Shown in pieces: positions 1 through 13,552 of a DNA stretch of 13,724 nt. Below the pieces are notes generated by a model. It saw only the letters and a list, made by a program, of their open reading frames with translations. It searched no databases and was not told the DNA's origin. Both the position numbers and the translations under genes were made by a program. Every line of letters starts with the position of its first letter. Position 1 is the stretch's first letter. The stretch is from Pseudomonadota bacterium (lineage in GTDB: Bacteria; Desulfobacterota; Desulfobacteria; Desulfobacterales; Desulfobacteraceae), in assembly GCA_018816605.1 (NCBI GenBank), contig JAHIVS010000352.1, forward strand, positions 1 through 13,724, written 5' to 3'.

Positions 1-309
1 CATCCGGATCTGGTGGTGGATGCCCTGAAAAAAGGGGCGGACGGCATCATGGTCATGGGCTGACACCTGGGTGAATGTCATTACCAGGATGGTAATATAA
101 AAGCTTCAGCCAGATTCGACGTCATCCGGTTCATGCTGGAAGATGCCGGCATTAACCCTGAACGGGCCACGATCGTATGGGTATCCGGTGCCGAAGGCCC
201 CCGGTTTGCCCGGAAAGTCACCGAATTTACCCAAAAAATAAAAGCACTTGGACCCAATGGCTTCAAAAAAAGCCGGCGTGTCCAAAAGGAGGAGGCACCA
301 TGCCAGTAA
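1..309 (+). CDS. mvhD: Hydrogenase iron-sulfur subunit MvhD, C-terminal part, selenoprotein (UGA at 61-63)
   Basis: Frame 1 is open from the window edge to TAA at 307-309 except for one TGA at 61-63. Read through, it gives the MvhD/FlpD family pattern. 'GADGIMVMG' precedes the UGA, 'HLGECHY' follows it, and 'SGAEGPRFA' and 'KALGP' come near the C-terminus. The family normally has Cys at the UGA position (GCHxGxCHY), so the codon is read as selenocysteine. MvhD carries a [2Fe-2S] cluster and passes electrons from the MvhAG hydrogenase to HdrA in the electron-bifurcating Hdr/Mvh complex. The 5' part lies outside the window; an hdr gene upstream is likely but not visible. The last 10 nt overlap the start of mvhG, which suggests translational coupling. 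The alternative, a pseudogene with a stop, is unlikely because the reading frame and motifs continue intact after the UGA. Confidence 0.9.
80..96 (+). promoter_or_regulatory. Candidate bacterial SECIS hairpin of mvhD
   Basis: A perfect 6-bp stem, ATTACC (80-85) with GGTAAT (91-96), closes a five-base loop AGGAT. The loop begins 22 nt after the UGA at 61-63. Bacterial SECIS elements are small stem-loops inside the coding region, shortly after the UGA, with a G among the first two loop bases; SelB binds them. This hairpin meets those rules (G at loop position 2). The call rests on eye-folding only. Confidence 0.7.
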
Positions 310-1235
310 AAATTGCCGGTGAATGGCTCAACTCCTGCTCGGGATGTGAAATCGCCATTCTCAACCTGGGAGAAACCCTGCTGGATCTTCTTCCCGATCT
401 TGATTTTGTCCACATCCCGGTTCTCATGGACCATAAACACTATGGCCAGCTCGGGGACAAGGCCCAAATTGATATTCCAAAGGCCACGGTGGGACTTGTT
501 TCAGGCGGTATCCGCAATGAGGAACACCTGGAGGTGGCCCATGAGATGCGCAAAAAATGTGATATCCTCATTGCCCTTGGCACCTGTGCCACCCACGGCG
601 GCATTCCTGCCCTGATCAATGCCTATACCAATGACCAGCTCTTTGAACGCTATTATCACACCGAAAGCACGGATCCCGGCGCCCAGGTGCCCGCAAGCGG
701 GGTGTCCAGACTTCTGGACCGGTGCTATGCCCTGGACGAGCAGATCAAAGTGGATATCTACCTGCCCGGCTGCCCCCCCCACCCGGACCAGATTGCCACC
801 GTCATCCTGGCCCTTTTGGCCGGAGAGACCCCGGTCCTGCCTTTCAGAAGCGTCTGCGACACCTGTCCCACAAAGCGCAACGGCAAGGGAAAGGTTAAAC
901 AAATCAAGCGCTTTATCACCACTCCGGCCTTTGATCCGGATCAGCCCCTGGACCAGATGCAATGTCTTCTGGAGCAGGGGTATCTGTGCACCGGCCCTGT
1001 CACCAAGGCGGGATGTGCGGGCAACAGCGGAGAAGGCCCCCGGTGTATCAGCGCCCGGGTTCCCTGCCGGGGCTGCTACGGCCCGGTGAAACAGGACGGC
1101 AACCAGCTTCTGGACATGCTCAATGCCCTGGTCTCCAACGGCATTGATATCAACAGCCTGCCGGACAGGGACAGCCTGCTCCGGTTTTCCGGGGCACACA
1201 ATCGGCTGGTTGCCAACAAAAAAGGAGGGATGTAA
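300..1235 (+). CDS. mvhG: F420-non-reducing [NiFe] hydrogenase small subunit MvhG
   Basis: This 311-residue small subunit of a group 3c hydrogenase carries electrons by iron-sulfur clusters from the NiFe site in MvhA toward MvhD. The proximal-cluster ligands are visible: C13 and C16 in 'NSCSGCE', C96 in 'GTCATHGG' and C158 in 'LPGCPPHP'. A Cys-rich C-terminal half (CDTC near residue 185, then CxGxxGxGPRC and PCRGC) supplies ligands for further clusters. The start at 300 is chosen because AAGGAGGAGG lies just upstream and the protein then begins 'MPVKIAGEWLNSC' as family members do. A longer open frame from 177 only extends into mvhD. There is no twin-arginine signal, so it should be cytoplasmic. 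It overlaps mvhD by 10 nt and abuts mvhA directly. Confidence 0.93.
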   Translation: MPVKIAGEWLNSCSGCEIAILNLGETLLDLLPDLDFVHIPVLMDHKHYGQLGDKAQIDIPKATVGLVSGGIRNEEHLEVAHEMRKKCDILIALGTCATHGGIPALINAYTNDQLFERYYHTESTDPGAQVPASGVSRLLDRCYALDEQIKVDIYLPGCPPHPDQIATVILALLAGETPVLPFRSVCDTCPTKRNGKGKVKQIKRFITTPAFDPDQPLDQMQCLLEQGYLCTGPVTKAGCAGNSGEGPRCISARVPCRGCYGPVKQDGNQLLDMLNALVSNGIDINSLPDRDSLLRFSGAHNRLVANKKGGM

Positions 1236-2669
1236 ATGGGAAAAACAATCAATATCTCGCCCCTGTCCAGGATCGAAGGACATGCGAACATTAAAATTCA
1301 ATTGGATGACACGGGCAATGTGGAAAATGCCGTCACCCATTTCAACTCCATCCGGGGGTTTGAAAAATATGTCCAGGGCAAGCCTGCCGAAGAGGTGACC
1401 CGGATCGTCACCCGGATCTGCGGCATCTGCCCCTGGCACCACCATCTGTCCTCCACCAAGGCCGTGGACGCCTGTTTTGGGGCGGATGTGGCTCCTGCCG
1501 GCCACATGCTCAGGGAATGCATGCAGAACATGGCCCATATCAATGACAAGATTCTCCATTTCTACTTTCTGGCAGCGCCTGACTTTGTCCTGGGGCCGGA
1601 TGCCGATTACAGGGTCAGAAACGTCATCGGCATTGCAAAGGCTGCTCCGGACCTTGCACGGCAGGTCATCCGGATGCGCCAACTGGGCCAGATGATGATG
1701 GAAAAATTTGCCGGCAAGGTGATCCACCCCATTGCGGCCGTGCCCGGCGGGTTTTCCAAACCCATGTCCGACAGCCAAAGGCTTAGCCTGATGGACGACA
1801 CCAAGACCCTGCTGGAATTTGCAAAGTTTACCATGGCCCATGCCAAGCAAAACATCTTCCCCAACTACCTGGAAGAGGTGACCACCATCGGCTCCATCAC
1901 CACCGGGTTCATCGGAACGGTGGACGACCAGGGCTCTTTAAACTTTTACGACGGCCGGATCCGGCTCATGAAGCCCGACGGCAGCTTTTCGGATTTCCAT
2001 GATGCCGACTATCTTAATTATATCGGCGAGCATGTGCAAGACACCTCCTATGGAAAATTCCCCTATGCCAAGTCCTGGGGCGAAGGGTTTTCCATGGACC
2101 TTGCACACCCCAAGGGCATCTACCGGGCCAACTGCCTGGCCAGGATCAATGTCTGCGACCGGATTTCAACCCCCCTGGCGCAGGCCGAGCTGGAAGAGTT
2201 CAGGAAAAGCTTTGGCCGCCCTGCCCAGCACACCCTGCTCTACCACTGGGCAAGGCTCATTGAGTTGGTCTATGCCTGTGAAAAAACCCTGGAACTTTTG
2301 TCCGATATTGCCATCTGCGGCAGGGAAACACGGTTTGACGTGACCCCCAGGGCAGGCCGGGGTGTGGGGCATGTGGAAGCCCCCCGGGGCACGCTCATCC
2401 ATGACTATACCACCGATGACAAGGGTCTTATTGTCTCGGCCAACATGATTGTGGGGACCACCCACAACCTGGCCCCCATCAGCATGAGCGTGGAGCAGGC
2501 CGCCCGGATGCTCATCAAGGACGGAAAGGTGGATGAAACCATCCTCAATAAGGTGGAAATGGCCGTTCGGGCCTACGACCCCTGAATTTCCTGTGCCACC
2601 CACCGCCTGGACGGCGGCAAGATTATCGCTATTAAAATTGTGGATAAAACCGGCCGGGAAATCCAATAA
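1236..2669 (+). CDS. mvhA: [NiFeSe]-type hydrogenase large subunit MvhA, selenoprotein (UGA at 2583-2585)
   Basis: This catalytic subunit splits or makes H2 at the nickel-iron site. The N-terminal ligand motif is RICGIC, with C62 and C65. The C-terminal motif reads DP-U-ISCATH when TGA at 2583-2585 is taken as Sec450, followed by C453 and H456; the family consensus is DPCxxCxxH. The frame then runs 21 more residues to TAA at 2667-2669. Such a tail is normally cut off after the His by a maturation protease once nickel is inserted. The full length of 477 residues fits the family, and stopping at the UGA would remove two of the four nickel-binding residues. In known [NiFeSe] hydrogenases Sec replaces exactly this terminal Ni ligand. 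The ATG follows the mvhG stop with no gap, and AAGGAGGG lies inside the end of mvhG. Confidence 0.93.
2603..2617 (+). promoter_or_regulatory. Candidate bacterial SECIS hairpin of mvhA
   Basis: The stem CCGCC (2603-2607) with GGCGG (2613-2617) closes the loop TGGAC. The loop begins 22 nt after the UGA at 2583-2585, the same spacing as in mvhD, and both loops fit NGGAN. A G is present at loop position 2, as expected for SelB recognition. The stem is short but GC-only. The fold was found by eye. Confidence 0.65.
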
Positions 2670-6369: not shown

Positions 6370-7416
6370 ATGAAATTATCAAAAGAAGCACCCGGATCTG
6401 AAACGCAAGGTGCCGCATCTGAATCAACCCCGGAATCATTAACAACGATGCCCTGGGGAGACTGCCCGGCAATGCAGCAGCTATTGAAAGACGTACGATG
6501 CGTGGCCAGATCCAACCGGCCGGTTTTGATAACCGGGCCCACCGGGTCCGGCAAAGAGGTGGTTGCAGCCCATATCCATCGGTTTGGCGACAGGCGTCAT
6601 TCCGCTTTTATCCCGATTAATTGCGGGGCAATCCCTGAGACGCTTATCGAATCAGAACTATTTGGTCATGAACGCGGCGCTTTTACCGGTGCCACACAGG
6701 CCTCTGACGGCTATCTGGGAACGGTTCGGGACGGGACCCTCTTCCTTGACGAGGTTGGTGAGCTTCCCCTCGTTCAGCAAACCAGGCTCCTTCGGGTTCT
6801 GGAAACCCGCTGCTTTGCACCCATCGGCTCAGCAAGGCAGCATAAATTCCATGGCCGGATCATGGCCGCCACACACAAGGACCTCAAGCAGATGGTTCTT
6901 GAGGGGAAATTTCGCGAAGATCTCTACTATCGTATCGGGGTCTTGGTTCTGAGAATACCGGGATTGAACGAACGTCGGGAGGATATTCCCAAACTTGTGA
7001 CCTATATGGCCTCGGACCAAATTCGCACTTTACGCTTTTCATCCGGCGCGCTGGCTGCCCTGACTCAAGCCGACTGGCCCGGAAATATCCGGCAACTCAG
7101 AAATATCGTTGACCGGATCGCAGTCCTAAGCGATGATGACCCGGTAACAAAAGACACTGTTCGTCGGTTTATTTCCGATAGAAACCGATCCATGCAGGAG
7201 ACGCTGGACACGATTACCGCTAAAATTCTTGGGCTTGACCTGGAGAACAAACTTCATTGCCTGCAGTCTTCAATGATCCGCCATGCCCTGCAGAAAACCG
7301 GCGGAAACAAGAGTGCGGCGGCCCGTTTGCTGGGGGTCCACCGGAAGTTTCTTGAGCGCAAACTCCAGGCAGAAGGCGGTTCTTTTTTCCAAACACTTTC
7401 CATGGAAAAACACTAG
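6370..7416 (+). CDS. Sigma-54 enhancer-binding activator without receiver domain (AAA+, Fis-type HTH)
   Basis: This 348-residue transcription activator of the NtrC/PspF class uses ATP to open sigma-54 RNA polymerase at -24/-12 promoters. The N-terminal region before the AAA+ core is only about 30 residues, so no receiver, GAF or PAS domain is present. Walker A is GPTGSGK (56-62), the sigma-54 contact loop is GAFTGA (103-108) and Walker B includes D127 E128. A C-terminal Fis-type helix-turn-helix lies at about 295-340 ('GGNKSAAARLLGVHRKFLER'). The ATG at 6370 has AAGG 7 nt upstream. Activity must be set by a partner protein, by its level, or be constitutive. A good sigma-54 promoter lies 0.9 kb downstream at 8284-8299, making that operon the obvious target; this is inference. 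Confidence 0.92.
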   Translation: MKLSKEAPGSETQGAASESTPESLTTMPWGDCPAMQQLLKDVRCVARSNRPVLITGPTGSGKEVVAAHIHRFGDRRHSAFIPINCGAIPETLIESELFGHERGAFTGATQASDGYLGTVRDGTLFLDEVGELPLVQQTRLLRVLETRCFAPIGSARQHKFHGRIMAATHKDLKQMVLEGKFREDLYYRIGVLVLRIPGLNERREDIPKLVTYMASDQIRTLRFSSGALAALTQADWPGNIRQLRNIVDRIAVLSDDDPVTKDTVRRFISDRNRSMQETLDTITAKILGLDLENKLHCLQSSMIRHALQKTGGNKSAAARLLGVHRKFLERKLQAEGGSFFQTLSMEKH

Positions 7417-7589: not shown

Positions 7590-7605
7590 ACCCGGCTAAC
7601 CGGGT
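7590..7605 (-). terminator. Possible terminator hairpin at the end of the HTH gene
   Basis: ACCCGG (7590-7595) and CCGGGT (7600-7605) form a perfect 6-bp stem whose loop holds the TAG stop of the minus-strand HTH gene. On the minus strand a run of seven T comes only about 8 nt after the stem, so termination is possible but not typical. Confidence 0.35.
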
Positions 7606-8039
7606 TTTGGGTCCAGAATCGATTTTAACAGATTTTGACACTGGCGTTCTTTCAAGGCGATGCCGAACCGTTTTTCAAGGTGCTCGGATAACAGCCTGCC
7701 GGTCCACTTATGCCGTGTATATCCCGAGGCCTGGGGTGATTTTTTAAGATCCTGGCCAAGGATCTGCCGCTCTTGTTTTGTCAGGGAAGATTTACGTCCC
7801 CGGCCGGGCGTATCTTTCAATCCCTCTATGCCCTGGTCGTTCAAGCGGTGGAGCCACCGCTGGACGGTTGTCGGGGCGATCCGGAAAAGCGTTGCGATTG
7901 TTGCAATGGGAATACCCCGGCAGGCCAGCATTGCGATTTGAAGGCGGCCGATAAAACGTGCGTCTTGGCTTCCGGAAAGATAGCGATGTATTTCTGCCTT
8001 GATTTTCCCGCAATTCTCAATTTTTATGGCTTTGGGCAT
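7596..8039 (-). CDS. Orphan transposase-type helix-turn-helix protein (IS630-like N-terminal domain)
   Basis: This 147-residue protein has the HTH region of IS630/Tc1-type transposases: 'IATLFRIAPTTVQRWLHRLN' is the first HTH, 'GIEGLKDTPGRGRKSSLT' is the typical linker, and a second winged-helix-like part follows. The start at 8039 is chosen because AAGGAG lies 6 nt upstream on the minus strand; the open frame reaches further up without that support. The DDE catalytic domain is absent, since only 180 nt separate the stop from the preceding gene. Either this is the first half of a decayed insertion sequence or a stand-alone DNA-binding protein. Its intact frame and good ribosome binding site make the second worth considering. 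It lies opposite to all its neighbours. Confidence 0.7.
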   Translation of the reverse strand: MPKAIKIENCGKIKAEIHRYLSGSQDARFIGRLQIAMLACRGIPIATIATLFRIAPTTVQRWLHRLNDQGIEGLKDTPGRGRKSSLTKQERQILGQDLKKSPQASGYTRHKWTGRLLSEHLEKRFGIALKERQCQNLLKSILDPKPG

Positions 8040-8283
8040 ATGGGTCTCCTTAAACGAACCAGGCCTGGCATCTATACGTCTTCTAAAAATAAAAATGACT
8101 CCTGGTATCTTAGCAGCCTGCCGCCGAACTGAAAGAAGGTGTTTTGCCTCCATGCTCTGGCCGGACCCGGGCAGGGCCTGTTTTGGTTATTTTGGTATCC
8201 CGCCTGGCATTTTTTCAAGTTCAACCCAGGGAAATCTTGGGGAAGCTGCAATAATTTATGCGTGTATTTTCAAATAGATATAC
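8040..8283. other. Divergent intergenic region between HTH gene and sigma-54 operon
   Basis: No gene is convincing here. The stretch should hold the minus-strand HTH gene's promoter and the upstream activator sites of the sigma-54 promoter. TTTTGG occurs twice close together near 8180-8195, and an AT-rich tract near 8250-8280 could allow bending. No clear long palindrome was seen. Confidence 0.4.
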
Positions 8284-8299
8284 TGGCATCAAGTTTGCT
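8284..8299 (+). promoter_or_regulatory. Sigma-54 (-24/-12) promoter
   Basis: TGGCATCAAGTTTGCT matches the consensus TGGCAC-N5-TTGCW with one change and has the required GG-N10-GC spacing (GG 8285-8286, GC 8297-8298). The start site would be near 8310, about 37 nt before the first gene at 8347. A sigma-54 activator is encoded 0.9 kb upstream. Confidence 0.75.
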
Positions 8300-8346
8300 C
8301 ATCCATACAAATAAACCAATTCAACCCCATTACAAAGGAGAGGGCA

Positions 8347-9168
8347 ATGTCGTTAATTTTACCATTTCAATTCATCAACAAGGTTCCTGGTGATGAAGCG
8401 CAATTGGCCACCGTGGTTTTTGTTGAAAATTGCTATGCCGCGAAACCGGAAAAAGACTCCAATGGCAAACAGGAAAATGGGTCTTTTTTTTATACGGCCT
8501 GGCAGTATTTGAATCCCTCGGGCGGTTCGGAAGAAAACTTTCAATATGATACCCAGCTGGCCGTGTCCGCCCGGATAGCGTCCCAGCAGGACACCCTTGC
8601 ACCCGACAGCGACGGGGCCGGACAAAACAGCACCCTTGTTACCCCCAGAAACTATCTGCCCAGTCCACTCCAGCAAGTCTTTGCCGGCCAGCGCTGGCAG
8701 GTTGAGGAGGTGTCCGTAACCCGGTCCGGCAAAACAATCCAGTCCCTGAGGGTGAAGGCGGCCGGGGCAGCAAAGGGCCCTTTTGTCGAGGTGATCAACA
8801 ATATTGAACTCGAACCCGGCTACACCATGGAGCTGGACTGGTTTTTCGGCCCCAGCCAGATGGGGGTCACCTGCGGCCTGACCCAGGGTCAGCCCGCGGT
8901 GCTGCAAACCGGGACCCGGATTTTTTTTAAACCGGTGATGCCCGGGGCTGACAAATGGGTGCAAAAGCGGTGGACCCCCGGAGAATTGGAAGATGCGACC
9001 GTCTATGTGCCGCCCATTACCGCAGAAATGATTCAGGTTTTTTTCCAAAAAAAACAAGGGCCCGAGCCCCCCGCAGAACTGAAAAAACACAACGACCGCC
9101 CCCCAGAAACGCCCGGGTCTCCATCTTTACCGGAAGAAAGGCAGTATCTGTTTATCCCCATTGAATAA
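8347..9168 (+). CDS. Conserved-looking protein A of unknown function, paralog of the next gene
   Basis: This 273-residue protein is not recognised with confidence. It has no signal peptide or membrane segment. Alternating hydrophobic and polar residues and many aromatics suggest an all-beta fold. It shares blocks with the gene at 9282: 'YTAWQYLNPSGG' with 'VHAWQVLNASAG' (then E-x-F-x-Y), a 'VNN' block followed by 'DWF/NWF', and a last strand ending in 'PIE' or 'PVE'. A Pro/Glu-rich insert (about 235-262) precedes the last strand and is missing from the paralog. The style recalls RhiA-like proteins, but that is only an impression. AAAGGAG lies 6 nt before the ATG. It is the first gene after the sigma-54 promoter, so it is likely the most strongly made. 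A carrier, scaffold or immunity role for the peptide system is speculation. Confidence 0.75.
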   Translation: MSLILPFQFINKVPGDEAQLATVVFVENCYAAKPEKDSNGKQENGSFFYTAWQYLNPSGGSEENFQYDTQLAVSARIASQQDTLAPDSDGAGQNSTLVTPRNYLPSPLQQVFAGQRWQVEEVSVTRSGKTIQSLRVKAAGAAKGPFVEVINNIELEPGYTMELDWFFGPSQMGVTCGLTQGQPAVLQTGTRIFFKPVMPGADKWVQKRWTPGELEDATVYVPPITAEMIQVFFQKKQGPEPPAELKKHNDRPPETPGSPSLPEERQYLFIPIE

Positions 9169-9182
9169 GCGATCAAGAAGTT

Positions 9183-9196
9183 CCTGTGGCCACAGG
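9183..9196. repeat. 14-bp perfect palindrome
   Basis: CCTGTGGCCACAGG reads the same on both strands and lies in the 113-nt gap between the two paralogous genes. It could be an operator half-site pair or the core of a weak hairpin. No second copy was noticed. Confidence 0.4.
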
Positions 9197-9281
9197 TTGA
9201 TGGCCCTCGGATCTGCGATGGCGCCGGGTCCAAGGGAGAATATGTACAAAAAACCCGAATTTACCCAAAAGGAGAAACACA

Positions 9282-9908
9282 ATGACAACTTTTAATGTAA
9301 CCATGAGTGTCGAATCGATGGAAGGCAAATCCGTTCTGGTATTCTTAAAGCCCCTGTCGCCCCAACGCAACTATCTGGTCCATGCCTGGCAGGTGCTGAA
9401 TGCCTCTGCCGGAGCAACGGAATCCTTTGATTACGAGGCACATATTTCCACCTGCGTCACCAGTGTAGGACTCAATCCCAGCAACACGGTCATTTCCAAA
9501 ACCGAACCCATCGTACCGGGTCAGTTGCTCCAGGCTGTGAGCCCCAGCGGCCTGTCGCCCAAACTGGAAAAAGCCTCCTCGGCCCTGGCCAAGGAAAAAC
9601 TGACCCCCCAGCAGGCAGGGGTGGTCAACAACACAAATCCCTTTTTCCAGTTTGATTGCAATTGGTTTGTCAACCAGAAACCTGTGGTGACCATGCCCAA
9701 AGTTGATGCGGGAATGACCTGCTCCTTTGAATATATGCCCAATTTTTATTTCATGATAGCAGCGCCGCCTTTGACCGGGCAGACCTATATCGTGCAAAAT
9801 TTTTCAGACATGACCAAATATGTCATGCCCATCAGTGCCACCTCGGTTGAGGTTGTCGTGTCCAGAAGTCAGGGACGTTGGGAATTTGATTTTACGCCCG
9901 TTGAATAA
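9282..9908 (+). CDS. Conserved-looking protein B of unknown function, paralog of the preceding gene
   Basis: This 208-residue protein has no signal peptide or membrane segment and looks like an all-beta protein. It aligns with the gene at 8347 over several blocks: 'HAWQVLNASAGATESFDYEA', 'PGQLLQAVSPS' against 'PSPLQQVF', 'VVNNTNPFFQFDCNWF' against 'VINNIELEPGYTMELDWF', and the shared ending F-x-P-(V/I)-E. It lacks the Pro-rich insert of its paralog. AAAGGAG lies 7 nt upstream of the ATG, nearly the same ribosome site as in the genes before and after it. The paralog pair suggests a duplication kept for two partner subunits, or for two substrates. The true function cannot be read from the sequence. 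Confidence 0.75.
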   Translation: MTTFNVTMSVESMEGKSVLVFLKPLSPQRNYLVHAWQVLNASAGATESFDYEAHISTCVTSVGLNPSNTVISKTEPIVPGQLLQAVSPSGLSPKLEKASSALAKEKLTPQQAGVVNNTNPFFQFDCNWFVNQKPVVTMPKVDAGMTCSFEYMPNFYFMIAAPPLTGQTYIVQNFSDMTKYVMPISATSVEVVVSRSQGRWEFDFTPVE

Positions 9909-9918
9909 TTGTTCCATT

Positions 9919-9946
9919 GGGCTGCGGTCTTAAAGGACCGCGGCCC
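9919..9946 (+). other. Strong intercistronic RNA hairpin
   Basis: GGGCTGCGGTC (9919-9929) pairs with GACCGCGGCCC (9936-9946), 11 bp with one T-G wobble and a TTAAAG loop, in the 61-nt gap before the protease gene. No T run follows, so it is more likely a stabilising or attenuating element than a full terminator. Confidence 0.6.
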
Positions 9947-9969
9947 GCAATTTGTAAAGGAGAGAAACC

Positions 9970-10905
9970 ATGATCAGAAGCAGGCTTGTTCTAGTGGTTA
10001 CACTAGTGTTCTGGCTGGCAGTCGGTTTGGCGGTCGGCCAAGAATCAGGACCTTTTATTATCATAAAACAGGAACGCGGTTTGATAAAAGAATGGGACAA
10101 TACTCGGTTTCAGGACACCAAACCGCTGGCGATGCCCGAGCTGAACCCGACACAATTCACCCAATTGCTCAAAGACCAGCCCCCTCCTTACGGCAGAGCT
10201 ATGGAGCCGATGATTGAAGAAGGACAGGTGAAGGCTCTGAAGACCCCGGGTCAGCCCCGCAAGGCAGATGTGCAAAAGATGCCCTTTTCCGGTGGTGGAA
10301 AATTGTTTTTTTCCACCCCGTCCGGGGATGCCAGCTGTTCTGCTCAATTTGTCGGCAACAGCGAAAAAGTAATCATGACCGCAGCCCATTGCGTTGTTGA
10401 CAAGGATACCGGCCAGAAATATTCAAATTTCACCTTTTACCGGGCCTATGCCGAGGGAGGCGGGCAGCAGGTCGGAATTGAATGCGGGGCCGTAAACAAA
10501 AAATGGAAACAAAAGGCCGACCAGCCGCCAAATTTTGCATATGATTACGCCTTTTTTCTCACCCATGTAACGTCAAGCGGGGGCTCTCTGGGGCTTAAAA
10601 TGGAAATTCCGGACACAAAGCTCACGGCCATCGGTTATCCGCAAAACTATGGCAACAGCCAGTATATGTACGCGGTGGACGGCAGTAAGGGAACCCTATC
10701 CGGCCATATCGTGCAAATGGTGAACAATCCCATGAGAAACGGCAACAGCGGTGGCGCCTGGATAGGAGATTTAAACAAGGGAGACTATGCCGTCGGCTTG
10801 AATTCTTTCCATGTAAGCGGAGAATCAACCAGTGAATACGGGCCTTTCTTCAATGACGAGACCTGGGACCTGTATCAATTTGTCAAACAGGGAAAGTGCA
10901 GATGA
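9970..10905 (+). CDS. Secreted trypsin-like serine protease (S1 family)
   Basis: This 311-residue protein starts with a clear Sec signal peptide: basic MIRSR, a hydrophobic core to about residue 20, and likely cleavage near 'AVG-QES'. After a pro-region of about 85 residues comes the chymotrypsin-fold domain. H140 lies in 'MTAAHC', D192 in 'YDYAFF' and S260 in 'GNSGGAW' (GDSGG in most relatives). All three catalytic residues are therefore present, and the spacing is right. It should act in the periplasm or outside the cell. The cleavage preference cannot be read with confidence. AAAGGAG lies 7 nt upstream of the ATG, and a strong hairpin separates it from the paralog gene. Lying directly before a small Cys-rich peptide gene, it is a candidate for trimming that peptide after export. 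Confidence 0.88.
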   Translation: MIRSRLVLVVTLVFWLAVGLAVGQESGPFIIIKQERGLIKEWDNTRFQDTKPLAMPELNPTQFTQLLKDQPPPYGRAMEPMIEEGQVKALKTPGQPRKADVQKMPFSGGGKLFFSTPSGDASCSAQFVGNSEKVIMTAAHCVVDKDTGQKYSNFTFYRAYAEGGGQQVGIECGAVNKKWKQKADQPPNFAYDYAFFLTHVTSSGGSLGLKMEIPDTKLTAIGYPQNYGNSQYMYAVDGSKGTLSGHIVQMVNNPMRNGNSGGAWIGDLNKGDYAVGLNSFHVSGESTSEYGPFFNDETWDLYQFVKQGKCR

Positions 10906-10984
10906 AACCGTTCCAACAAAGGCAAACGATAGGCTTAAGACCATGAAGTTTGCAGCAATCAACTTAAAAAAAGGAGGACATGAC

Positions 10985-11179
10985 ATGGGTGAAGCTAGAA
11001 TCCAGGCCCCCCCCCGGATCCGCAGGGTCCATGGGGGTCAGGCACAGAACATGGGCCCAAGGCCCAGGCGTTGCGGCTGCAATTGCGGCCAATGTGCCTG
11101 CAGCAATGACAATCAACCCCGGGCCAATACCGGGATCACGGTTTATACCGCAACCCAGCAGGGAACCCAGGCCAATTAA
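10985..11179 (+). CDS. 64-residue Cys-rich peptide, candidate radical SAM substrate (RiPP precursor)
   Basis: This small ORF has an ideal AAGGAGG (10971-10977) 7 nt before the ATG. Residues 1-29 are basic and Cys-free, and include 'RRVHGGQAQ' (Gly-Gly at 17-18) and 'GPRPRR'. Residues 30-39 are CGCNCGQCAC, with Cys at 30, 32, 34, 37 and 39. Residues 40-64 are rich in Thr, Asn and Gln ('NTGITVYTATQQGTQ'). A cluster of N-terminal Cys followed by a Thr-rich tail is the layout of sactipeptides, where Cys sulfur is bonded to a backbone carbon of a later residue. The next gene encodes a SPASM radical SAM enzyme, the usual maker of such bonds. Alternatives are a metal-binding peptide or a substrate for another Cys modification. 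A longer start at ATG 10943 is possible but has a poor ribosome site. There is no signal peptide. Confidence 0.7.
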   Translation: MGEARIQAPPRIRRVHGGQAQNMGPRPRRCGCNCGQCACSNDNQPRANTGITVYTATQQGTQAN

Positions 11180-11186
11180 ACACGCC

Positions 11187-11203
11187 TCCGGGAGAGGCCC
11201 GGA
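11187..11203 (+). other. RNA hairpin after the peptide gene
   Basis: TCCGGG (11187-11192) pairs perfectly with CCCGGA (11198-11203) around a five-base loop, beginning 7 nt after the stop of the peptide gene. No T run follows. Confidence 0.5.
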
Positions 11204-11220
11204 ACCACTGAAAGATTGAA

Positions 11221-11253
11221 GCAGTCCGACCCGGCCCTGCCGGTTCGGGCTGC
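11221..11253 (+). other. Strong intercistronic hairpin between peptide and radical SAM genes
   Basis: The arms 11221-11235 and 11239-11253 pair over 15 positions with one G-T wobble and one mismatch, closing on a CCT loop. There is no T run. Such a structure between a precursor gene and its modifying enzyme often reduces read-through or protects the upstream RNA, giving more peptide than enzyme. Confidence 0.65.
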
Positions 11254-11300
11254 ACACGTATCCGGCCCCGGGGTTTGGAGAACCTGGAAAAGAGGTTACC

Positions 11301-12845
11301 ATGGACAACCCAGCAGAAAGAAACCATTTTTTTAGAACCGGCCGCACCACCAAAGTGCCCCTGATGGCCCATTTCCGAACACAAAAATCCCACTATATTT
11401 ATGACGCCGGCACCAACGAAATTGTATTGGTGCCCACAGATTTCTGGGAGGCCAGCCGGCCCCGGGCCTTCGGGCAGCCCGGATCATACCTATCCCCAGG
11501 ATCTTTTTCCGGGAATGGCAGTCAACGGCCCCGGGTGACAGAGCTCCTGACGTCAGATCTCAAAACCGCCAGGGACTCCGGACTCTTTGGGACGAAAAGG
11601 CCCCGGGGCCGGAGTCTGTTTCTAAGTAAAAAACAATTTGCCCAAAAGACCCGGCAGCATCTGAGCCAACTGATACTGTGCATCACGGAACGCTGCAATT
11701 TGCGCTGTTTGTATTGTCCCTATTCGGCATCCTATCCCCACCAGCGTCAACATGGTTCCAGGGGGATGTCTTTTGAGACGGCCCGGCAGGCGGTGGATTT
11801 TTTTCTGGCCCATAGCAAAAAGGCAGAGCATCGATTTATAAGTTTTTATGGGGGAGAGCCCACCCTTAATATGCCCATTGTCAGAAAGATCGTTGAATAT
11901 ACCCGGTGTAAATGCGGTTCCAGCGTCTCGTTCAACATGACCACAAACGGATATAACCTGCCGGAAGAGACTTTGAAATTTCTGGTGGATCAAAATTTTT
12001 TAATAGTGGTGAGCGTGGATGGTCCGGCCGACCAACATGACAAATACAGACGAACCATAGGCCAGCACCCAACCCATGGGGGCGTTTTGAAAACCCTGGT
12101 GCGTCTGCGCACAATGGCTTGGGACGATTGTATTTCCCGGTTGAGGCTCTCCATTGTAATCGCCCCCCCCTATGACATCCGGCGCCTGAAATTGTATTTT
12201 GACAATGACCCTTTGTTTCAAGATATCGGGTTTGGTGTCACCATGGTGGCCAGTGCCACAAAACATTTTTTTTCCAACCAGAAAGTCCAAGAGGCCCTGG
12301 AGGTTAAATTGCCCTTTGACACCAAATTTGAAGCCATGTTCCAGGAATACAAACAAAACCTTATCAACAACACCCCCTACAAAAGCCGGTTTCTGGCGGC
12401 AATTTTTGAGATGCGGTTTCTTCGCCTTCACAAACGGATACTCCACAACGGGTATTCGGATCTCATTTATGCCAATGGTATTTGTGAGCCGGGCATCAGA
12501 AGACTTTATGTGACGTGTGACGGCCGGTTCACAATTTGTGAAAAAGCCAATAACACTTTGGAAATCGGCAATCTTGAAGAGGGCATTGATTCCGAAAAAG
12601 TCTTTGGTATTTTGACTGGCTTTATCCGGAATCTGGACCGCCAGTGTACCCGCTGTTTTGCCAACAGATTGTGTTCCGTCTGTTTTGCCAGCGATTTCAG
12701 TTCCAAAGATTTTTATCCAGGAGACCTGGAAAGTGAATGCGCCCGGATCCGGGAAGACCTTAACACAAATCTGATTGCCTATTGCCAGGTCCTTGAAAGC
12801 AATCCCAGGGCCTTTGATTTTATGCAGGACATAACCCTGGAATAG
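11301..12845 (+). CDS. SPASM-domain radical SAM peptide-modifying enzyme
   Basis: This 514-residue enzyme has an N-terminal region of about 125 residues ('HYIYDAGTNEIVLVPTDFWE' is typical of peptide maturases and could help bind the leader). The radical SAM core follows: C132, C136 and C139 in CNLRCLYC hold the [4Fe-4S] cluster that cleaves S-adenosylmethionine, and 'FYGGEPT' is the SAM-binding motif. The C-terminal SPASM domain has C395, G408, C413, then C449, C452, C458, C461 and C480, enough for two auxiliary clusters. The last pair is CX2C where the usual pattern is CX3C. This architecture is that of thioether- or C-C-bond-forming peptide maturases (AlbA, SkfB, CteB types). GAGG lies 5 nt before the ATG. 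The substrate is most likely the 64-residue peptide encoded 121 nt upstream. The exact bond made cannot be deduced. Confidence 0.9.
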   Translation: MDNPAERNHFFRTGRTTKVPLMAHFRTQKSHYIYDAGTNEIVLVPTDFWEASRPRAFGQPGSYLSPGSFSGNGSQRPRVTELLTSDLKTARDSGLFGTKRPRGRSLFLSKKQFAQKTRQHLSQLILCITERCNLRCLYCPYSASYPHQRQHGSRGMSFETARQAVDFFLAHSKKAEHRFISFYGGEPTLNMPIVRKIVEYTRCKCGSSVSFNMTTNGYNLPEETLKFLVDQNFLIVVSVDGPADQHDKYRRTIGQHPTHGGVLKTLVRLRTMAWDDCISRLRLSIVIAPPYDIRRLKLYFDNDPLFQDIGFGVTMVASATKHFFSNQKVQEALEVKLPFDTKFEAMFQEYKQNLINNTPYKSRFLAAIFEMRFLRLHKRILHNGYSDLIYANGICEPGIRRLYVTCDGRFTICEKANNTLEIGNLEEGIDSEKVFGILTGFIRNLDRQCTRCFANRLCSVCFASDFSSKDFYPGDLESECARIREDLNTNLIAYCQVLESNPRAFDFMQDITLE

Positions 12846-12871: not shown

Positions 12872-13552
12872 TTAAAATTCCAGTGTGCCGAAAAATTTCG
12901 GCAGATGAAAATTGGGTTTGGGAAAATCAACCGGTGCCCAGGTCAGCCAATGGGGATGGGAAGATTTGTCGGCACATTTATAAAAATTTGCACGCCATTC
13001 CGCGCTGGGTGAGGGCCGGGTCACCGGACAATATTTTTTGAGCAGGGCCACGGGAATCTTGTATGAAATGCGCCAGGTGACCGGCTCGTCGATTTCCGGG
13101 TCAACCCTTTGGGGCAGAGAATGGGCAATCTTTATCCTGCGGCAGTCCTTTTCCGGGATGATGATCCTGTCCCTGCCGTTCCCGGGATGAAAATGGAAGA
13201 GCAGGGTTCCGCCGCAATTTGTCTCAAGGTTAAAATAGCCTCTGGAGATATCCGGGCCGGGTGTAAAAAAAAATTCCACGCAACTGTCTTCCCAGACATT
13301 GCCCTGGAAATCGGCTGCAACAGCCCGGACATACCTGTCATAAACTTGGAACAAAAGATTCAGGGCCTTATCATCATAGGCGATTTTCACCTCTGTCCTT
13401 GGGAAATGATCCGGTTTTTCCCCCATGTAATTTTGGATCACCTGGAAGGAAATCTCTTTCCACGGGTGCCGGTCCCAATCCGGAATTCCGGTCCGATGGG
13501 AGGTCAGATATGCAACTTTGCAGCGCATCTTTGGGTGTTTTTTGCCGGACAT
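12872..13552 (-). CDS. Carbohydrate-binding family 9-like (CBM9-like) protein
   Basis: This 226-residue minus-strand protein consists almost entirely of one CBM9-like beta-sandwich. Family hallmarks are 'KIAYDDKALNLLFQVYDRYVRAV', then 'VWEDSCVEFFFTPGP' and 'GYFNLETNCGGTLL' (about residues 57-125), with the last strands near 'WRISYKIPVALL' and 'EWRANFYKCAD'. No signal peptide is seen, so it seems cytoplasmic unless the start is wrong. ATG 13552 is used; the nearest purine-rich site is GGA about 10 nt upstream, and an ATG at 13528 is a second option. It begins 5 nt after the stop of a DmsC-like gene, so they are probably co-transcribed. The same fold also includes heme-binding gamma subunits of some DMSO-reductase-family enzymes, which is a possible but unproven link to its neighbour. 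Confidence 0.8.
   Translation of the reverse strand: MSGKKHPKMRCKVAYLTSHRTGIPDWDRHPWKEISFQVIQNYMGEKPDHFPRTEVKIAYDDKALNLLFQVYDRYVRAVAADFQGNVWEDSCVEFFFTPGPDISRGYFNLETNCGGTLLFHFHPGNGRDRIIIPEKDCRRIKIAHSLPQRVDPEIDEPVTWRISYKIPVALLKKYCPVTRPSPSAEWRANFYKCADKSSHPHWLTWAPVDFPKPNFHLPKFFGTLEF

Follow-up and report, generated by a model that had tools for sequence, protein, structure and literature searches.

The promoter and five genes at positions 8,284 to 12,845 of a 13,724-nucleotide stretch from a Desulfobacteraceae bacterium (contig JAHIVS010000352.1 of assembly GCA_018816605.1; the whole stretch is referred to as the window) raise the question of whether they constitute a single undescribed peptide system, as had been suggested from the letters alone in an original prediction, or an assembly of parts with separate origins. 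In order, the genes encode two related proteins (A and B), a protease, a short Cys-rich peptide and a radical S-adenosylmethionine (SAM) enzyme with a SPASM region. The reading that we prefer, with a probability of roughly 0.55, is that they form one sigma-54-driven operon in which two blocks with different origins are joined. Of these, block 1 (8347-10905) would consist of A and B together with a trypsin-fold protease destined for export, and block 2 (10985-12845), with a 64-residue Cys-rich precursor and the radical SAM/SPASM enzyme, would be a thioether cassette for a ribosomally synthesized and post-translationally modified peptide (RiPP). It is possible that, in a limited lineage, the two blocks have fused and function together as a unit.

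The gene order and common direction of the original prediction hold, with five + strand open reading frames (ORFs) separated by gaps of 113, 61, 79 and 121 bases, in which a terminator scan finds no + strand terminator-like site. The predicted sigma-54 promoter is likewise borne out by an exact match, with a GG-N10-GC core within TGGCAY-N5-TTGCW, which ends 47 bases before the start of A and is the sole such site in the window even when one mismatch is allowed; shuffled sequences give an expectation of 0.08 exact sites per window, with at least one present in 15 of the 200 shuffles. From this motif, sigma-54 control of the operon is probable, and the activator encoded upstream, an AAA+ protein with a Fis-type helix-turn-helix in which a Pfam search finds no N-terminal receiver or sensor domain, is a candidate regulator by its proximity. 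Matching ribosome sites had also been claimed, and AAAGGAG or AAGGAGG is indeed present in front of four genes, with AAAAGAGG instead in front of the radical SAM gene. The strong hairpin predicted in the gap that separates the enzyme gene from that of the peptide might reduce the output of enzyme compared with peptide, and its fold is only mildly unusual (z -1.98; 6 of 200 shuffles fold equally well).

Table 1. Features of the window with the basis of each assignment
Feature	Positions	Strand	Size	Basis
Sigma-54-type -24/-12 promoter, TGGCATCAAGTTTGCT	8284-8299	+		Exact TGGCAYN5TTGCW match
A	8347-9168	+	273 aa	ORF list
B	9282-9908	+	208 aa	ORF list
Trypsin-fold serine protease, probably exported	9970-10905	+	311 aa	ORF list; PF13365, 3cp7, triad motifs
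Putative RiPP precursor peptide	10985-11179	+	64 aa	ORF list; coding frame, ribosome site, beside enzyme gene
Putative leader	10985-11071	+	residues 1-29	
Putative core, beginning CGCNCGQCAC	11072-11176	+	residues 30-64	
Spacer with strong predicted hairpin, peptide/enzyme gap	11180-11300	+		RNA fold, -50.2 kcal/mol
Radical SAM/SPASM enzyme with CteB-like N-terminal region, putative maturase of thioether-type peptides	11301-12845	+	514 aa	ORF list; PF04055, NCBIfam, 5WGG
Sigma-54 activator gene	6370-7416	+		PF00158 (3.1e-62), PF02954 (2.4e-10)
IS630-type transposase fragment	7596-8153	-	185 aa	Match limited to positions 2-107 of 299 of IS630 transposase
[NiFe] hydrogenase small and large subunit genes	177-2585	+		
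CBM9_2 carbohydrate-binding-type protein gene	12872-13552	-		

The description of A and B as two paralogous beta-type proteins is confirmed by profile-profile comparison with hhalign (probability 97.7%, E 1.7e-12). Both are predicted to be beta-rich, with predicted local distance difference test (pLDDT) values of 80.6 for A and 88 for B, and by these models they may be beta-sandwich proteins; no signal peptide is seen by eye in A. A profile of 23 B sequences gives 386 bits to B, itself one of the 23 rows, and 21.4 bits (E 3.6e-5) to A, which lies outside the profile. The homologues listed for B number 101, at 46-98% identity, with the four closest at 86-98% and named proteins of Pseudomonas, Atopomonas, Marinomonas, Duganella, Janthinobacterium, Chitinimonas and Sulfuriflexus at 60-71%, except for a second-type B copy in Pseudomonas solani (52%); ten aligned A homologues are 22-32% identical. 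B is rare, occurring in 3 of 398 sampled Pseudomonadota genomes (one the sample centre, another the genome of locus L008), and has no match in viral contigs, nor in plasmids and phages at 1e-5, where a relaxed search returns one partial Microvirga match (41.5 bits to the B profile). Searches place B in no family of Pfam, NCBIfam, PHROG or PADLOC, and A, at E up to 1, in none of the first two. Judged from these alignments, the B family is unnamed, undescribed and highly conserved across distant bacteria, and the A/B family appears to have been widely transferred. A link of A/B to the AidA/PixA inclusion proteins or to RhiA, considered as a candidate, is supported by no test and was dropped. Three tandem B copies, 73-76% identical to the B of L020, are present in Pseudomonas alcaligenes (L004:10001-12250).

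The loci in which B occurs elsewhere bear directly on the question of one system or two blocks. Twenty-three such loci were fetched with the B profile and their neighbours called by tblastn; some stop at contig ends. A lies upstream of B in the same order as in the window in 11 of the 23, and the protease, the peptide and an enzyme orthologue are present in none, a single 26% radical SAM match being found in L019. Neither is an enzyme orthologue found in the 21 whole genomes that carry B (radical SAM matches of 26-27% in 3 of 21 only), nor a protease match at E 1e-5, in a search run without a positive control. When genome contigs were scanned using just the enzyme as query, a scan that reached close relatives only, the five-gene set was not found. 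Among the longest contigs listed, no size is common by eye to the 101 B rows and the 118 enzyme rows, including a 19,333-base contig with an 86% B; this comparison is indirect, as the listing gives a single contig per cluster, the longest, and contigs of 1-2.6 kb carry the remaining close B relatives. The conserved five-gene system of the original prediction is not supported by these comparisons, which took in genomes outside the window's own lineage, and the neighbourhood check for joint occurrence that it proposed is largely negative. Its statement that the set matches no recognised system stands, in that searches up to E 1 assign A, B and the peptide to no Pfam or NCBIfam family.

All five genes could nevertheless be a single dedicated system, with maturation of the crosslinked peptide falling to the protease and its binding, carriage, display or neutralisation to A and B. 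The shared strand, tight spacing, common sigma-54-type promoter and similar ribosome sites of four genes are in its favour, as is the fact that no other exporter or immunity gene is recognised. We regard it as unlikely, in view of the 23 A/B-family loci and 21 B genomes described above and of the nearest enzyme relatives (41-49% identity), whose longest contigs, of 10.7-35 kb, have sizes that appear for none of the B matches listed. A role of A and B as exporter or immunity proteins, which had been raised as an option, is weak because the peptide is absent from every readable B locus.

The opposite explanation is an accidental juxtaposition through rearrangement, in which A-B-protease and peptide-enzyme would be separate transcription units and the cassette would have its own promoter. 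The IS630-type ORF, probably a remnant, sits between the activator gene and the promoter just upstream of A, and A/B occur elsewhere without the cassette, both of which fit such an event. However, the sole sigma-70-like + strand site from A to the enzyme start is inside B (9771-9800, 9 of 12 matches), and no terminator separates the blocks, so that we consider this explanation rather unlikely. The scan behind this result finds eight sigma-70-like sites against five expected by chance and would miss other promoter types. Elsewhere in the window, hydrogenase genes lie upstream, and the CBM9_2-type gene, convergent with the enzyme gene, encodes no other Pfam domain over the cut-off.

The assignment of block 2 as a RiPP cassette starts from the peptide, whose frame has a coding score of +0.045 per codon, as compared with -0.05 to -0.31 for six other tested frames; six known genes from the window reach +0.06 to +0.13 when each is left out of the model that scores it. 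AAGGAGG is located 7 bases 5' of its ATG. The five cysteines (residues 30, 32, 34, 37 and 39) all fall within ten residues, immediately after an RPRR sequence at residues 26-29, and are followed by 25 Cys-free residues, an arrangement that would be suited to bridges running from the Cys block into the tail. A search for relatives, which needed shared exact words, returned one candidate, the identical protein only.

The enzyme matches the Pfam family Radical_SAM (6.4e-16) and contains the CX3CX2C motif (C132, C136 and C139; codons 132-139) and all seven SPASM cysteines, in the arrangement C395-X12-G-X4-C413-X35-C449-X2-C452-X5-C458-X2-C461-X18-C480, which are invariant across 18 aligned sequences, the window's included; the Pfam SPASM model remains below its cut-off (14.2 of 21.5 bits). 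The best NCBIfam model is that of CcpM (TIGR04068), with 262 bits over residues 23-499 and a cut-off of 500, and the RumMC model (NF035951) gives 220 bits over residues 111-512 with a cut-off of 720. The quinohemoprotein maturase model and the SCIFF model (TIGR03974) give 147 of 453 and 102 of 425 bits. Among solved structures, the enzyme profile matches CteB best (PDB 5WGG; 1.4e-61, profile positions 8-468), and the alignment starts at chain residue 4-5, thereby covering the N-terminal region, which in CteB is the leader-binding RiPP recognition element (RRE), according to one published account (PMC8326336). From these matches, the peptide and enzyme appear to form a RumMC/CcpM-like thioether-type RiPP cassette, in agreement with the Cys-rich peptide and maturase that had been predicted.

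A protein search with the enzyme yields 118 proteins, its own included, of which the nearest others are 49, 43, 42 and 41% identical and the remaining ones at most 33% identical over most of the length. Six of the 398 sampled Pseudomonadota genomes have matches at E 1e-20 (26-33% identity), which we take to be QhpD-like. In plasmids, 198 records match, all below 60% identity with the best rows at 23-28%, and viral contigs searched with the enzyme alone give none. One viral-contig record (L044) has a 26%-identical enzyme adjoining a peptide with CRCYC and CGCAC blocks, which scores 30.8 bits on the CA_C0660 sactipeptide family (cut-off 60) and is followed, with the enzyme, by genes that look by eye like those of an ATP-binding cassette (ABC) transporter. 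Another (L047:7500-7730) carries a CYCPCEC peptide ORF, with no NCBIfam match, just 5' of a radical SAM/SPASM-like gene.

In the proposed mechanism, the putatively RRE-like N-terminal region of the enzyme would bind the precursor through its leader, and the enzyme, using SAM and its SPASM clusters, would link a number of the five CGCNCGQCAC cysteines with positions further along the Cys-free tail by thioether bridges of the sactipeptide or ranthipeptide type. The leader would plausibly be removed after RPRR, at residue 29, to give a 35-residue product, which might be exported and might have an antagonistic role. The product could instead be intracellular, redox-active or metal-binding and not antimicrobial, like SCIFF-type peptides, the role of which is unsettled. 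That CteB, a SCIFF maturase, is the strongest relative of solved structure and that no exporter or immunity gene is recognised in the window are consistent with this, whereas the co-encoded, probably exported protease and the RPRR/C junction suggest processing outside the cytoplasm, and we find such a product improbable. The enzyme might also mature another protein in the manner of QhpD, with the 64-residue ORF not being its substrate, as could be argued from its score on the quinohemoprotein maturase model and from the lack of peptide relatives. We hold this to be very improbable, since a Cys-rich ORF with a good ribosome site lies directly 5' of the enzyme gene and a related enzyme adjoins a CxC-rich peptide.

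The exported protease of the original prediction is supported by matches to PF13365 (5e-5, just under the cut-off) and to the AL20 protease 3cp7 (1.2e-10, aligned over residues 110-304), by the motifs AAHC, DYAF and GNSGG at residues 138, 192 and 258 for the His, Asp and Ser of the triad, and by a hydrophobic N-terminus that by eye is an apparent signal peptide. On these grounds, the protein is a chymotrypsin/trypsin-fold serine protease with complete triad motifs and is probably exported. It is the only candidate leader protease recognised in the window, and together with the RPRR/C junction it recalls the activation of ruminococcin C (RumC), whose leader is removed by trypsin after Lys19, a removal needed for activity (PMC6779426). 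It could equally well be an exported partner of A and B.

The B loci elsewhere also reveal an association that is more surprising than the RiPP cassette. In addition to A, the 23 loci contain near B a third paralogue C (10 loci), an extracytoplasmic function (ECF)-type sigma-70-family gene (15), an orphan of about 1,050 aa (10), a tail-collar protein (10), EndoU (9) and another exported protein (2); the ECF type was established by Pfam on two sigma genes and the collar (PF07484) on one. The order ECF-type sigma, orphan, tail-collar, A, B and (C) is found in L003, L005, L009, L010, L011, L014, L015, L020 and L023. EndoU exceeds the Pfam cut-off in L001, L002, L004, L009, L010, L011 and L015, is partial and below it in L013, and is recognised by a profile built for this analysis in L014; it lies 4-5 kb from B in L014 and L015 and about 1 kb or less away in the other seven. 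By eye, these EndoU proteins have signal-like N-termini. At E 0.001, EndoU is present in 10 of the 21 B genomes (9 over the cut-off) as compared with 5 of 299 sampled Pseudomonadota, and 9 of its 13 places in the B genomes are inside the B locus when positions are compared. This contrast shows that B and EndoU are linked and is not a calibrated p-value, the 299-genome sample being phylum-wide and not lineage-matched and the B genomes being non-independent (eight Pseudomonas, two Chitinimonas and two Janthinobacterium). A literature search found no paper joining EndoU and tail collar.

Several further features of these loci were observed. Exported proteins directly after C in two of them (L007:11432-11995 and L020:11450-12034), 43% identical and with a YRGM motif, occupy the position of EndoU in other loci and have no Pfam match. 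Downstream of B in Pseudomonas marginalis (L002:10926-11552), a 208-aa ORF with S-type pyocin, cytotoxic and cloacin-immunity domains looks like a bacteriocin remnant. Relatives of the orphan occur in 13 plasmid records, including those of a haloarchaeon, Tsukamurella, Sinorhizobium and Chryseobacterium, with a patatin-like phospholipase gene beside the relative in two of four viewed.

A sigma-54-like site (at most one mismatch, in the 250 bases preceding each + strand gene close to B) is seen once in the 23 loci, far from A/B and before neither, and sigma-54 control therefore looks particular to the window. A tentative generalization, which we think unlikely to hold, is that A/B(/C) form a general, horizontally moving module paired with an interchangeable exported effector. 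This would be EndoU in Pseudomonas, Duganella and Chitinimonas, a different exported protein in two further loci, and in the window a serine protease and a thioether-crosslinked peptide, with a switch from ECF-sigma to sigma-54 control; one locus also has an S-type pyocin remnant close by. On the preferred reading, it is simply that A/B family loci elsewhere often carry a probably exported nuclease-type protein, to which the exported protease of the window would correspond.

Several points weigh against the preferred reading of two blocks joined in one operon. The single direction, the spacing of 61-121 bases and the lack of internal + strand terminators are the pattern of one unit, and the 23 loci and 21 genomes all lie outside the window's own lineage. 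A is missing in 12 of the 23 loci, and an exported partner is not universal, because EndoU and the other exported protein are both missing in 12 of 23. The enzyme scores far under the NCBIfam equivalog cut-offs and, even at E up to 1, neither Pfam nor NCBIfam offers a family for the peptide, so that the bridge chemistry is extrapolated. In trypsin, the specificity for Arg/Lys is set by an Asp on the floor of the S1 pocket, which precedes the catalytic Ser by six residues; the window protease has a Pro at this position, and cleavage after Arg is not indicated because of this substitution. Finally, no exporter or immunity gene is recognised in the window, where not every ORF was put to family search.

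If the preferred reading is correct, the cassette would bring thioether peptides of the RumMC/CcpM type into an operon under sigma-54 control that also encodes an exported protease, and would offer a testable case of a co-encoded activating protease in a class whose studied example uses outside trypsin. The cassette is of a known type, whereas the A/B family is undescribed: a nameless B-type putative beta-sandwich protein, 60-71% identical across distant bacteria and linked to exported RNases, represents an unexplained system. The B family and its EndoU linkage merit separate follow-up.

Among known systems, no paper was found that joins sigma-54, RiPP, radical SAM and Desulfobacter. The ECF sigma/tail-collar/A-B-C/EndoU loci of Betaproteobacteria and Pseudomonas share the adjacent A-B pair in the same order (11 of 23) and, in several cases, an exported protein after it. 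The window differs from them in that the ECF sigma, 1,050-aa, collar, C and EndoU genes are not found by tblastn within its 13.7 kb, and in that it carries an exported protease and RiPP genes. CcpM/CLI_3235 (TIGR04068/TIGR04065) provides the top-scoring NCBIfam model, which spans almost the full enzyme, although the score is below the cut-off and the peptide has no match to TIGR04065. Similarly, CteB, the maturase of the SCIFF/thermocellin ranthipeptide, is the best solved-structure match, with the N-terminal region included, whereas the enzyme reaches only 102 of 425 bits on TIGR03974 and the peptide matches no SCIFF model. The window differs from ruminococcin C in the low score on the RumMC model (220 of 720 bits), in five cysteines in CGCNCGQCAC as opposed to four in RumC, in a co-encoded protease where that of RumC is supplied by the gut, and in a sigma-54-type promoter without recognised exporter or immunity genes. 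The likenesses to ruminococcin C are the length of the precursor (64 residues here, RumC1 ending at residue 63), the core cysteines, a basic residue where leader and core meet, the involvement of a trypsin-fold protease and a SPASM radical SAM enzyme with nearly identical Cys spacing, that of RumMC being published as CX13GX4CX36CX2CX5CX2CX18C (PMC6779426).

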